A stretch of DNA of 64,000 bases, taken from positions 248,001 through 312,000 of the forward strand of contig NZ_AUIJ01000001.1 of the NCBI RefSeq assembly GCF_000423645.1. Reading direction: 5' to 3'. Shown here piece by piece: positions 3,657 through 40,832 of the stretch. The position numbers and the translations under genes were made by a program. The first letter of the stretch is position 1, and each line of letters begins with the position of its first letter. Below the pieces are notes generated by a model. The model worked only from the letters and a program-made list of their open reading frames with translations, was not told the origin of the DNA and ran no database searches. The DNA comes from Sediminimonas qiaohouensis DSM 21189. Lineage in GTDB: Bacteria > Pseudomonadota > Alphaproteobacteria > Rhodobacterales > Rhodobacteraceae.

Positions 3657-3893
3657 GGGACCACCCCGCGCGAAATAGCGCACGAAGGGCGCCGCGCATC
3701 GCCGGGCCGCCCGTCGCCCCAAAGGGGCGCCGCCCAACATCGGCACGCCTCCGGCGTGACGGCACGGCGATTTGGCTGCAGCCTGCGCAACGCTCCAGGG
3801 CTCTTCGGATTTGGCTGTCATAAAGTGCCCCGCACCAGCGTAGGATCGCCGCACCGCGGCCCGTCGATGCGCGGCGCCTCAACCGGTCGTCAA
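3657..3893. repeat. Dispersed inverted-repeat-ended element, copy 1
   Basis: Fills the convergent gap after ppx. The left end (3690-3711, cgccgcgcatcgccgggccg...) is nearly the reverse complement of the right end (3858-3876, ggcccgtcgatgcgcggcg). A core at 3831-3862 (accagcgtaggatcgccgca...) recurs at 20407-20435 and 37199-37227. The left flank, gcgcgaaatagcgc...gggc, also recurs at 20285. This copy is longer than the others because of extra GC-rich bases at about 3712-3765. No transposase is nearby. It resembles a MITE or another non-autonomous intergenic repeat. Confidence 0.8.
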
Positions 3894-13512: not shown

Positions 13513-13845
13513 TTAGCCGGCGACTGCGCCGGTCTGGCCGTTGGTGCCGGTCTGGCCGTTGCCGTCGGTCTGGCCGTTGCCGCCGGTCTGCCCGTTGCCG
13601 CCGTTGCCACCGGGCGGCTGGTATTGCTCGTTCGGCACGCAGGGCGCGGCGCCGGCCACGTCCTGGCATCCGCCGCCAGGCTGACATGGCACGCTCTGGT
13701 TGCCCTGAACACAGCCCTGAAGTTCGCCCATCTTGTTGTAGACCGGCTCGCCGCTAATCGCCATCTTCTGGGGTTCCGGCTGGGCGCAGGCCCCGAGGAA
13801 GCCGGCAATCGCCAGCCCTGTGCCAAGCATGGTAACTCTGAACAT
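13513..13845 (-). CDS. Small lipoprotein with Gly-Asn-Gly-Gln tail repeats
   Basis: A 110-residue lipoprotein: signal MFRVTMLGTGLAIAGFLGAC with lipobox LGAC. The mature part has several cysteines (CVQGNQSVPCQPGGGCQDVAGAAPC) and a C-terminal low-complexity tail of NGQTGG/NGQTDG/NGQTGT repeats encoded by an ~18-bp DNA repeat at about 13530-13615. A good ribosome-binding site (aaaggag) precedes ATG 13845. It shares the CAQP start of mature sequence with the 47-residue lipoprotein at 14038-14181, suggesting related targeting or duplication. The function is unknown; repeat number may vary between strains. Confidence 0.75.
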   Translation of the reverse strand: MFRVTMLGTGLAIAGFLGACAQPEPQKMAISGEPVYNKMGELQGCVQGNQSVPCQPGGGCQDVAGAAPCVPNEQYQPPGGNGGNGQTGGNGQTDGNGQTGTNGQTGAVAG

Positions 13846-20145: not shown

Positions 20146-20270
20146 GCGCGCATCATACGCCACCGCCCCGTCCCCGTCGCCGGGAGAATACGCACACCCC
20201 CTACACACCGCCGCACAGGCGCAGGGCCATGCGGGTGCGGTTTTGGCGGGATATGGCCGGCTGCTGCCTT

Positions 20271-20460
20271 CTCATATAGTGCCTTGCGCGGAATAGCGCC
20301 CAAAGGGCGCCGCGCATCGCCGGGCCGCCCACCGGCACGGCGATTTTGCTAACGTATGCGCACCGCACAAATGTCATTCGGATTTGGCCAGCATAAACTG
20401 CCCCTCACCAGCGTAGGATCGCCGCACCGCGGCCCGACGATGCGCGTCCCGTCAACCCTC
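20271..20460. repeat. Dispersed inverted-repeat-ended element, copy 2
   Basis: Occupies most of the 338-bp gap between the hemerythrin gene and betA. Left flank ctcatatagtgccttgcgcg, left end cgccgcgcatcgccgggccg (20308-20327), core 20407-20435, right end ggcccgacgatgcgcg (20431-20446). The inner segment (tgtcattcggatttgg) also matches copies 1 and 3. It has the clearest left flank and is the best reference copy. Confidence 0.8.
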
Positions 20461-28408: not shown

Positions 28409-29011
28409 TCAGGCCCCGCGCAACAGCGCGATGGCGATCGCCCACATCACCGCGCCCACGCCCAGGTCCAAAGCCCGCCACGCGTTCGGCCTTGCAAAAA
28501 AGGGCGCCAACAGGCGCGCGCCATAACCCAGGCCAAAGAAAAAGACGAAACTGGCCAGCATTGCACCCAGTGCAAACCCGCTATGCGATTCATACTGCGC
28601 CGAAACCGACCCCAGTAGAACCACGGTATCCAGGTACACATGCGGGTTGGCCCAGGTCAGCATCAGGCACGTCAGAACCACCGTCCGCGCGCCCTGCGCG
28701 CCGCCGTTGCGCACGCTTAGCACTTCGCCGCCGCGCCACGCCGCCCAGAACGCCCGCACGCCATAAACGCCCAGGAACGCCGCGCCGCCCCACCGCATCA
28801 CCGGCTCCAGCCACGGCACCGCCTGCGCCAGCGCGCCAAACCCCGCCACACCGGCGGCGATCAGGATCGCATCGCTGACCGCGCAGGTCATCACCACCGC
28901 CAGGACATGCTCGCGCCGGATGCCGTGGCGCAGGACAAAGGCGTTCTGCGCCCCGATCGCCAGGATCAGCGATATGCCCAGCCCGAACCCCGCCACGAAT
29001 GCCGCCTGCAT
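28409..29011 (-). CDS. argO: LysE/ArgO-family amino-acid exporter
   Basis: A 200-residue inner-membrane exporter with five to six membrane segments. The N-terminal signature FGLGISLILAIGAQNAFVL and the mid-protein LTWANPHVYLDTVVLLG are those of the ArgO/LysE group, which exports arginine or lysine. Which amino acid is exported here is not certain. It lies upstream of the EamA gene on the same strand; a miniature dispersed repeat lies before it. Confidence 0.9.
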   Translation of the reverse strand: MQAAFVAGFGLGISLILAIGAQNAFVLRHGIRREHVLAVVMTCAVSDAILIAAGVAGFGALAQAVPWLEPVMRWGGAAFLGVYGVRAFWAAWRGGEVLSVRNGGAQGARTVVLTCLMLTWANPHVYLDTVVLLGSVSAQYESHSGFALGAMLASFVFFFGLGYGARLLAPFFARPNAWRALDLGVGAVMWAIAIALLRGA

Positions 29012-29130
29012 GATGCCCTGCCCTCCGTCATGCGCCTATGCTTGGCGCAGCCCCGGCATAGCGGGCCGGCGAAAAATCCGCCAGCCCCGGCGCGGCGTGG
29101 TGTTGTTCGACCTCTGACGCGAGGTGTTCG

Positions 29131-29212
29131 GTTGAAAAGCCGCGCATCGTTGGGCCGCGGTGCGGCGATGCGCGGCGCCCTGCGGGCTTGATTCCGCGCA
29201 GCGCGCTATATC
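29131..29212. repeat. Miniature, inverted copy of the dispersed element
   Basis: In the hutU/argO gap. Bases 29131-29165 (gttgaaaagccgcgcatcgt...) are the reverse complement of the right end of copy 3, and 29166-29212 (gatgcgcggcgccctgc ... attccgcgcagcgcgctata) the reverse complement of the left end of copy 2. The ends are fused with the middle missing, about 80 bp in all. Confidence 0.75.
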
Positions 29213-29263
29213 GAAGGTCAGCTCAAGGCCAATCACCCCCCGGATGACCAGGCGACCCAGACC

Positions 29264-30928
29264 CTACAATATCCCCGGCAGGTTCAGCCCATGTTCACGT
29301 GCGCAATCCAACGCGATGTCATAGCCCGCATCGGCATGCCGCATCACGCCCGTCGCCGGATCGTTCCACAACACGTTGGCCAGCCGCCTGTCCGCCGCCT
29401 CGGTCCCGTCGCAACAGATCACCATGCCGGAATGCTGCGAGAACCCCATGCCGACGCCGCCGCCGTGATGCAGGCTGACCCATGTCGCACCGCTCGCCGT
29501 GTTCAAAAGCGCATTCAACAGCGGCCAATCGCTGACCGCGTCGCTGCCATCCTTCATCGCCTCGGTCTCGCGGTTGGGGCTGGCCACCGATCCGCTATCC
29601 AGGTGATCGCGCCCGATCACCACCGGCGCCGACAGCTCGCCATTGCGCACCATCTCGTTGAACGCCAGGCCCAGCTTGTGCCGCAGGCCCAGCCCCACCC
29701 AGCAGATGCGCGCCGGCAGCCCCTGGAAACTGATCCGCTCGCGCGCCATGTCCAGCCACTGATGCAGGTGCGGATCATCGATCAACTGCTTCACCTTGGC
29801 GTCGGTCTTGTAGATATCCTCGGGATCACCCGACAGGGCGCACCACCGGAACGGCCCCACACCGCGGCAAAACAGCGGCCGGATATAGGCCGGCACGAAC
29901 CCGGGAAAGGCAAACGCATCCTCTAGCCCCTCCTCCAGCGCGACCTGCCGGATGTTGTTGCCGTAATCCAACGTCGGCACGCCCGCGTTCCAAAACTCCA
30001 CCATCGCCTGCACATGCACCCGCATGCTGGCACGCGCGGCGCGCTCCACCGCCTTTGGGTCACGCTCCTGCGCATCGCGCCACTGCGCCACGCTCCAGCC
30101 CTGCGGCAGGTAGCCATGCACCGGGTCATGGGCGCTGGTCTGGTCGGTCACGATATCGGGGCGCACCCCGCGCCTCACCAACTCGGGAAACACGTCCGCC
30201 GCGTTGGCGATCAGGGCCACGCTCCGGGCCTCGCCCGCAGTGGTCCAGCGCCCGATCATCTCCAGCGCCTCGTCCAGGTCATCGGTGATCTCGTCGACAT
30301 AGCCGGTGCGCTTGCGAAACGCCGCGCGGTCCGCGTCGCATTCCACCGCCAGGCAGCAGGCCCCGGCAAACACCGCCGCCAGCGGCTGCGCGCCGCCCAT
30401 GCCGCCCAGACCCCCGGTCAGGATCCACCGGCCCCTAAGCTTGCCGTCGTAATGCTGCCGGCCGGCCTCGACAAAGGTCTCGTAGGTGCCCTGCACGATG
30501 CCCTGGCTGCCGATATAGATCCACGACCCGGCGGTCATCTGCCCGTACATCATCAGGCCCTTTTTATCGAGCTCGCTAAAATGGTCCCAAGTGGCCCAGT
30601 GCGGCACCAGGTTCGAGTTGGCGATCAACACCCGCGGCGCGTCCGCATGCGTGCGGAACACCCCCACCGGCTTGCCCGATTGCACCAGCAATGTCTCGTC
30701 ATCCTCCAGCGCCTTCAGCGCCCCGACGATGCGGTCGAAATCCTCCCACGTGCGGGCGGCGCGACCGATGCCGCCATAGACGACCAACTCGTGCGGGTTC
30801 TCGGCCACGTCGGGGTGCAGGTTGTTCATCAGCATCCGCATCGGCGCCTCGGTCAGCCAGCTTTTCGCGCTGATCTCGGGGCCCGTGTCGGGGTATATGT
30901 CGCGGGTGTTGTGGCGTAGGTTCGTCAT
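29264..30928 (-). CDS. hutU: Urocanate hydratase
   Basis: Second step of histidine degradation: urocanate plus water to imidazolonepropionate, with NAD+ as a tightly bound cofactor. The 554 residues start [20 protein letters not shown]. The NAD-binding glycine run is [15 protein letters not shown], and the conserved [20 protein letters not shown] contains the active-site cysteine region. ATG 30928 has gagggagcgag upstream. It is last of hutI-hutH-hutG-hutU on the minus strand, but a 328-bp gap before it may hold its own promoter. Confidence 0.97.
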
Positions 30929-37095: not shown

Positions 37096-37256
37096 GAATA
37101 GCCGCGCATCGCCGGGCCGCCCCCAGGCACGGCGATACGGTTGAAACCTGCGCTACGCACAGATGTTTTTCGGACTTGGCAAACGTAAAATGCCCCGCAC
37201 CAGCGTAGGATCGCCGCACCGCGGCCCAACAACGCGCGACTTCTCAACCTGTTGAT
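37096..37256. repeat. Dispersed inverted-repeat-ended element, copy 3
   Basis: Fills the convergent gap between hutC and the YebC gene. Left end gccgcgcatcgccgggccgc (37101-37120), core accagcgtaggatcgccgca (37199-37218), right end ggcccaacaacgcgcg (37223-37238) then acttctcaac. The interior (cacagatgtttttcggactt) parallels copies 1 and 2. Confidence 0.8.
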
Positions 37257-39917: not shown

Positions 39918-39967
39918 CGTTCGCCACCGGACACAACGTGCCCGGCGCGGCGGCGGGCTTGAGCGGA

Positions 39968-39998
39968 CATCTCATATAGCGCCCTGCGCGGAATCAAG
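39968..39998. repeat. End fragment of the dispersed element
   Basis: atctcatatagcgccctgcg followed by cggaatcaa matches the left flank of copy 2 (20272-20296) with few changes and the miniature copy in reverse. No core or right end follows, so only the outer left flank remains, in the convergent gap between the SLC13 and YmdB genes. Confidence 0.55.
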
Positions 39999-40019
39999 GC
40001 CGCAGCCCGGCCCGGCGCC

Positions 40020-40832
40020 TCACGGCGCCGATGGCTCCAGCCGCCCACCCTGCCGGATCATGCGCACATCGCGCGCCTTGCCGGTGGCGTCGTCGGTTTC
40101 CACCAGCAACCCCGATAGCGTCACCTCGCCCAAGGCGGGGGTGAACCGCGTCTTGCCCATCCCGGTGACGAAGCGGCGCATCGGCTCGGTCTTGTCCATG
40201 CCGATCACGCTCAGGTAATCGCCGCACATGCCGGTATCGGTCTGATAGGCCGCGCCGCCGGGCAGTATCTGCGCATCCGCCGTCGGCGAATGGGTGTGCG
40301 TGCCCACGACGACGCTGGCCCGCCCGTCGCAGAAATGGCCCATGGCCATTTTCTCGCTGGTGGCCTCGCAATGCACATCGACAATCGCCGCCTGCACCGA
40401 ACCGCCAAGCGGATGCGTGCGCAGGACCGAATCGATGGCCGAGAACGGATCGTCGAACGCCCGCTTCATGAACACGTTGCCCAGCACATGCGCCACCAGC
40501 ACCTTGCGCCCGCGCGCATCCTGAAACACCCGCGCGCCCCGCCCCGGCGCCGCCTTGGCAAAGTTGATCGGCCTGAGAAGGCGCGTGTCCCCCTCGACCG
40601 CCTGCAGCATGTCCTTTTGATCGAAACAGTGATCCCCCAACGTCAGGCAATCGGCGCCCGCCGCCAGCAGGGCACTGGCATGCGCCGCGTTGCACCCCAT
40701 GCCACCCGTCGCGTTGTCGGCATTCACCACAACGAAATCCACTCGCCAATCTCTGCGCATGCGTGGCAGCGCCTCGGTCACCGCCTGCCGTCCGGCCCGG
40801 CCCATGACATCGCCCAAAAACAAAATTCTCAT
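40020..40832 (-). CDS. YmdB-type metallophosphoesterase
   Basis: A 270-residue protein of the TIGR00282/YmdB family. It starts MRILFLGDVMGRAGRQAV, then VNADNATGGMGCN, LTLGDHCFDQKD, and VDVHCEATSEKMAMGHFCDGRAS with VVGTHTHSPTADAQI. Bacillus YmdB is a 2',3'-cyclic-nucleotide phosphodiesterase with effects on biofilm; whether this one does the same is unknown. It precedes the folate enzyme gene on the same strand's downstream side, 48 bp apart. Confidence 0.93.
   Translation of the reverse strand: MRILFLGDVMGRAGRQAVTEALPRMRRDWRVDFVVVNADNATGGMGCNAAHASALLAAGADCLTLGDHCFDQKDMLQAVEGDTRLLRPINFAKAAPGRGARVFQDARGRKVLVAHVLGNVFMKRAFDDPFSAIDSVLRTHPLGGSVQAAIVDVHCEATSEKMAMGHFCDGRASVVVGTHTHSPTADAQILPGGAAYQTDTGMCGDYLSVIGMDKTEPMRRFVTGMGKTRFTPALGEVTLSGLLVETDDATGKARDVRMIRQGGRLEPSAP

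Follow-up and report, generated by a model that had tools for sequence, protein, structure and literature searches.

A shortened copy of a dispersed, palindrome-rich element between hutU and argO of Sediminimonas qiaohouensis, probably derived by internal deletion at a 7-bp repeat

The window, a 64,000-nucleotide stretch of the Sediminimonas qiaohouensis DSM 21189 genome, carries a short palindromic sequence (29131-29212, the mini copy) in the gap between hutU and argO, both on the minus strand. hutU, identified by the urocanate hydratase model at 931 bits, has its stop codon at 29264-29266, and argO, a LysE/ArgO-type exporter gene that the lysine-exporter and ArgO models match below their cut-offs, starts at 29011. 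A preliminary description of this DNA placed the sequence in front of argO; it does lie in the hutU-argO gap, but it is nearer to the 3' end of hutU, and its probable extent ends about 100 bp before the argO start. The two genes flanking 29012-29263 adjoin in this genome (G000, a 3.55-Mb draft). In the congener G002 (L100, L127) they are found on different contigs, each next to other genes, so that the mini copy marks a site where the gene order differs. On the minus strand, 29131-29212 reads as the left end of a dispersed element joined straight to the right end, with the interior missing. The parts of the mini copy and the fuller copies in the window are as follows.

29113-29252, minus strand: probable extent of the shortened element; outer limits tentative, with an outer inverted-repeat-like motif at 29113-29128 and TTGGCCTTGAGC-like words on the other side
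29130-29169, minus strand: right end of the element, as in copy 3; 90% identical to 37210-37249, 88% to 3845-3885 and 20418-20457
29139-29176, no strand assigned: 38-nt palindromic hairpin from the fused ends; predicted RNA fold -31.0 (plus) and -27.0 (minus) kcal/mol
29157-29231, minus strand: left end and flank, as in copy 2; 75% identical to 20254-20328
29163-29169, minus strand: putative deletion joint at ATCGCCG, a 7-bp word that the full copies of the window have in each of their ends
3664-3885, plus strand: copy 1, long form, in which the ends stand some 45 bp farther apart than in the medium form (G000:C1:251664-251885, Larm-Ins-Int-Rarm)
20254-20460, plus strand: copy 2, medium full-length form, from genome searches and part scan
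37101-37249, plus strand: copy 3, medium form without the left hairpin (G000:C1:285108-285249, Bmed-Int-Rarm)
39955-40030, plus strand: copy 4, consisting of the left end (C1:287971, left arm alone)

In canonical orientation, positions 2-56 of the mini copy match the left end of copy 2 (81.8% over 55 nt), and positions 44-82 match the right end of copy 3 (89.7% over 39 nt). These two matches overlap by 13 nt, and the overlap includes ATCGCCG at 29163-29169. Copy 4 also resembles the left part, with 39955-40014 as an inverted match to 29171-29230 (80%) and 39974-40030 at 80.7% to the mini copy. The arrangement given in the preliminary description, a reverse-complemented right end followed by the left end with the interior absent, is thus borne out by the alignments of 29130-29169 and 29157-29231 listed above. 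As for the outer limits, the TTGGCCTTGAGC-like words at one side were seen by eye to be common to other copies, and the outer motif at 29113-29128 scores 10, which equals the 99% level of the control and is borderline. That GC-rich hairpin words resemble the element merely by chance is practically negligible as an explanation. A 122-nt piece folded as DNA is no more stable than shuffles (z -0.6), as chance would allow, but the two matches score 55.4 and 53.6 bits against 31.9 bits for the best of 40 two-base block shuffles searched against the window, and five copies have the same joint. Chance similarity was rejected on this shuffle control together with two other short copies in G000, which match the mini copy at E 3e-21 and 1e-20 in a whole-genome search; the likeness is therefore not limited to short GC-rich words.

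The word ATCGCCG occurs twice in the fuller copies of the window, once in the left part and a second time in the right arm (positions 63 and 165 in copy 2, 8 and 110 in copy 3, 38 and 185 in copy 1). The spacing is 102 bp in the medium copies 2 and 3 and 147 bp in the long copy 1, and the short copy has a single ATCGCCG, bordered by left-end sequence on the one hand and by right-end sequence on the other. Genome-wide, 52 places were collected by two whole-genome searches and a local part-by-part scan of the fetched loci; a profile scan gave 53. Among the 52 places there are 14 medium forms (left arm, hairpin B, interior and right arm; in one, on C8, the interior is shorter), 13 long forms (with an added segment), five short forms (left arm and right arm only), one left arm with added segment and right arm, and 19 partial copies. 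Flanking gene ends of the G000 copies are 3' ends in 64 of 100 cases (two-sided binomial 0.007, from a crude gene caller that missed argO). Thus, the copies tend to sit behind genes, like the mini copy behind hutU. The pattern GGCACCTTGTRTCAG, with two mismatches allowed, is no commoner genome-wide than the control (17 against 20 matches), and six of its 17 matches adjoin elements. Two side observations belong to the same genome. At G000:C15:54683-54779 (L063) a different internal deletion was read by eye, in which the added segment is kept and the interior is lost, with joints at other short repeats. At 13527-13598 of the window there are tandem 18-bp repeats, seen as three register copies of 36 nt.

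An 80-bp class of copies therefore exists, and all five of its members in G000 have the joint CATCGCCGCACCG.

C1:277152, short copy (the mini copy of the window)
C5:55065, short copy
C3:174219, short copy
C1:373781, short copy
C5:48810, short copy

The breakpoints coincide in 5/5 short copies among the 52 places, at the 7-bp direct repeat, in agreement with the internal deletion suggested in the preliminary description. We consider it probable (roughly 0.72) that the mini copy is a dispersed, non-coding element of Rhodobacteraceae, rich in palindromes, that lost its interior by slippage at ATCGCCG, and that this happened several independent times. Replication slippage across hairpin-forming DNA produces such deletions. 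Here, the new strand would slip between the ATCGCCG words during replication, hairpins between the two words may help this slippage, and one repeat would be lost with the interior; the same deletion may have arisen repeatedly and independently. The whole element would most likely spread as a non-autonomous MITE-like mobile element by means of a putative transposase, and the mini copy looks like a decay product. Repeated slippage between the 7-bp repeats of the element itself is the most likely cause of the mini copy.

Mini copies that are identical may have arisen separately, since their breakpoint would be dictated by a short repeat within the element. The preliminary description had also offered the fused ends as the mobile or functional unit. 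In that case a transposase would recognise the two ends, and the short copies would have spread from one founder. The single joint in 5/5 short copies fits such a spread, as do two short copies at places where the readable congeners lack the element, and the occurrence of a joint that is rare elsewhere five times in G000 could mean a small amplified subfamily. On the other hand, the short copies occupy just 5/52 places and form no group of their own. Mean identity in the shared arms is 0.711 among the five short copies, 0.710 between them and 28 others, and 0.698 among the others, and 1744 of 5000 random sets of five were as alike (one row per place), in a test that is weak at about 100 shared positions and five copies. 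The nearest copy is full-length for four of the five; for the fifth, one short and three full copies tie at 0.78, and at this value L003, itself a short copy, ties for nearest to the short copy L006. The inner hairpins of the short copies differ, and most of these copies are nearest to different full copies. Since the short copies are no more alike than random sets, repeated deletion is favoured over the spread of one short founder, and the short form as a mobile unit in its own right appears unlikely. We found no case in which one species carries a full copy where another carries a short one, so that deletion in place was not observed directly.

The joint was also searched for, with at most two mismatches, in 295 genomes that represent the family by one per genus, among them G000. 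Matches were obtained at 20 places in 14 genomes. Read singly, they are seven short forms (five in G000, one in G181 and one in G098), seven right arms of full copies and six unrelated or unclear sequences; the short joint is thus present in one copy each in two of the 294 other genomes scanned. Another short form with the same joint is carried by Roseovarius pacificus (L228; spotted by reading rows and then checked). Were the short form mobile, its joint in G181, G098 and Roseovarius pacificus would call for transfer or repeated origin. The short forms in these three genomes and in G000 are best explained by deletions that occurred independently at one and the same 7-bp repeat.

The places of the short copies were compared among congeners. 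At the place of L006, 8 unaligned bases in G001 stand against 138 in G000, and the neighbouring genes are collinear on one G001 contig. The convergent stop codons there are separated by 3 bp in G001 and by 10 bp in G002 (alignment, by eye). In G002 a BLAST match at this place runs about 60 nt into the element stretch, and the alignment shows no element. At the place of L003, 86 unaligned bases in G002, with no element match, stand against 251 in G000. Hence the element differs by presence and absence between close relatives, being absent at the L006 place in G001 and G002 and at the L003 place in G002; this reading covers L006 and L003 among the five short copies, and G001 has contig ends at the L003 place. 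At both places the element was gained in the G000 lineage or lost in the others. As the readable congeners lack the element at the two short places, arrival as a short copy and later shortening are indistinguishable there.

The change of gene order at the mini copy raises another explanation, namely that it is the recombination joint of two distant full copies at ATCGCCG, which would have brought hutU next to argO. In G002 both genes lie well inside their separate contigs, which agrees with such an event, and no element stands beside hutU or argO in the G002 stretches fetched, a point also counted for this explanation. Against it, the genes on either side of the short copy L006 are collinear on a single G001 contig, so that at least L006 needs no rearrangement. 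Recombination between distant copies is decidedly unlikely, even more so than a mobile short form, and repeated slippage remains the preferred reading.

Length classes and cores differ between congeners at the same place. A long form (L052) corresponds to a medium form (L074) at 85% over 3158 bp, and another long form (L126) to a medium form (L073) at 82% over 1779 bp. At the L143/L009 place (86% over 2755 bp) the outer parts agree, and the core is of type 1 in one congener and of type 2 in the other; by eye, paired strands of these cores changed together. This core swap points to exchange among dispersed copies or to a template switch between inverted repeats. The second core type, in which arms GCGCCCGACCGCC replace ATCGCCGGGCCGCC, was observed in L025 (C1:427927), L027 (C5:91858) and L143 (G001). 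There are also possible traces of insertion. The complete copy at C1:190511-190851 (341 bp) ends in 15-bp inverted repeats that differ at one position, and a 7-bp direct repeat, TTGGCAT, adjoins it flush on both sides, as happened in 47 of 20000 random 341-bp spans; this direct repeat at insertion comes from one copy, and none was readable at the L006 place. An outer 24-nt motif, read by eye from some of the copies that were then scored, exceeds the 99% control level (10) on one side or both at 7/53 places and does not at 46/53, with 330-nt flanks compared to 250-nt control pieces.

Being inverted repeats of one another, the ends that remain give the 38-nt hairpin at 29139-29176. It is predicted to be more stable than all of 200 shuffles (z -4.6 on the plus strand, -4.4 on the minus strand), with 14 outer pairs on the plus strand enclosing a small inner stem. 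A strong hairpin of about 80 bp, as in the preliminary description, was rejected, since the palindrome is 38 nt long and the whole 82-nt stretch is less exceptional as RNA (z -1.5 plus, -3.5 minus). A consensus promoter or terminator in the mini copy was rejected as well. No promoter-like sites were found in 28950-29350 and no terminator-like sites inside the mini copy; the sole terminator-like site nearby (29079-29092, minus strand) lies outside it. There is no sign of a specific function at argO, and any effect on argO or hutU is speculation. The predicted hairpin behind hutU could at most affect mRNA stability or read-through.

On a wider scale, a search of 41 genomes with copy 2 gave matches at E 0.001 in 11, eight of them (G000 included) at 1e-13 or better. 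An exact right-arm pattern was found in at least 112 stretches at no fewer than 80 loci, on many Rhodobacterales contigs. Among the 84 right-arm pattern matches listed, 47 have the left motif upstream, at 104-108 nt in 44. The other three distances are 59, 60 and 79 nt, and two of these arose because an inner word was taken (L160 and L215, really 106 and 108). The other 37 of the 84 are chance matches in other bacteria, copies with too different a left arm, cuts at stretch ends, or the short L228. The alignment A1 was drawn from 74 candidates, of which four were dropped (L042, shifted; L043, without left hairpin; L080 and L158, chance), and has 70 rows, namely 12 from G000, eight from relatives and 50 named loci. 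The named loci represent at least 15 genus names besides Rhodobacterales without a genus name. Thus, the family spans many genera of Rhodobacteraceae and the Roseobacter group. Pseudosulfitobacter plasmids carry the element too, with 89 records including CP069022.1 and 60-80% identity at the best place; no annotated feature lies under the element among the 20 plasmid matches listed, in an incomplete gene table.

Conserved columns of A1 are found in the interior ATAAA region as well as in the arms, where the right-arm columns are invariant by construction, because the named loci were collected with the exact right-arm pattern. An interior motif, approximately TTCGGATTTGGCnGGCATAAAGYGC, recurs across many genera (A1; L158-L237). 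In the left hairpin there are paired changes, with GC replaced by CG in 8/70 rows at one pair. RNAalifold on the element gave little covariation (term -0.12). The named structure scored 26 cells with 8 pairs changed on both sides (0/500 shuffles; slid versions at most 16 cells and 6 pairs), a score tempered by the fact that related copies exceed shuffles easily. An alternative long helix is weaker (9 cells), and two slid versions of it score higher in covariation. The mid strand and the right end pair in 89.1% of cells, and two inverted units forming a hairpin are thus present. A known Rfam family was rejected, since no match in the window reached the gathering score in Rfam 15; elsewhere, the element stretch of L172 overlaps a sub-threshold match only (Bp1_738, 20.5 bits against 45, E 0.64). 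It is possible, if doubtful, that the full element is a structured element throughout Rhodobacteraceae whose interior, with the above motif and hairpins that show paired changes, is kept by selection as a 3'-region RNA or a protein-binding DNA site, the short copies being forms that lost this function by a recurrent built-in deletion.

The repeat was not found in the portions of PMC8632094 and PMC4809877 consulted. No earlier description of the family was found in the literature searches made, as judged by titles and the openings of abstracts. An internal deletion is a known kind of event, and the element family was not found described. The mini copy shows a decay route of a dispersed bacterial palindrome, and it brings out an element family that is common to many Rhodobacteraceae genera, has a conserved interior and is named in no library consulted.

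Modular intergenic palindromes with length classes are known as the RIME/ABC mosaic elements of rhizobia and the Correia/NEMIS elements. By description, the element can also be likened to the ERIC/RU repeats of enterobacteria, which, in the parts of the source consulted, are MITE-like, non-autonomous and intergenic, about 100-170 bp long, with terminal inverted repeats and stem-loops (PMC2759123). RU elements duplicate TA at the target according to the same portion of that source, whereas the complete copy here has a 7-bp repeat. Bru-RS of Brucella, an alphaproteobacterial intergenic stem-loop palindrome of 103-105 bp in the portion of the paper seen, was likened by description as well (PMC2267715). 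REPINs, as far as the consulted sections of the REPIN paper go, accompany RAYT transposases (PMC3116915), while no RAYT gene was detected with the element. A RAYT-driven REPIN was rejected, as the RAYT domain (Y1_Tnp, PF01797) has no match in G000 or in seven relatives with the element at E 1e-13 or better (G001, G002, G004, G011, G012, G013 and G022), some of these genomes being incomplete drafts (G001 58%, G002 87%). Among three genomes with marginal element matches, PF01797 is present in G036 and absent in G018 and G024. The element further differs from REPINs in its long conserved interior and, for some G000 copies, in outer inverted repeats. Both REPINs or REP singlets and this element are dispersed, extragenic, hairpin-forming inverted repeats. 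In the sections consulted, deletion of the sequence between the paired REPs of one REPIN is stated to leave a long palindrome, and such events were seen in SBW25 as unpublished data (Bertels and Rainey, 2011, PMC3116915). The short form described here resembles this REPIN deletion palindrome, and the full element appears to behave in the manner of a MITE or a REPIN.
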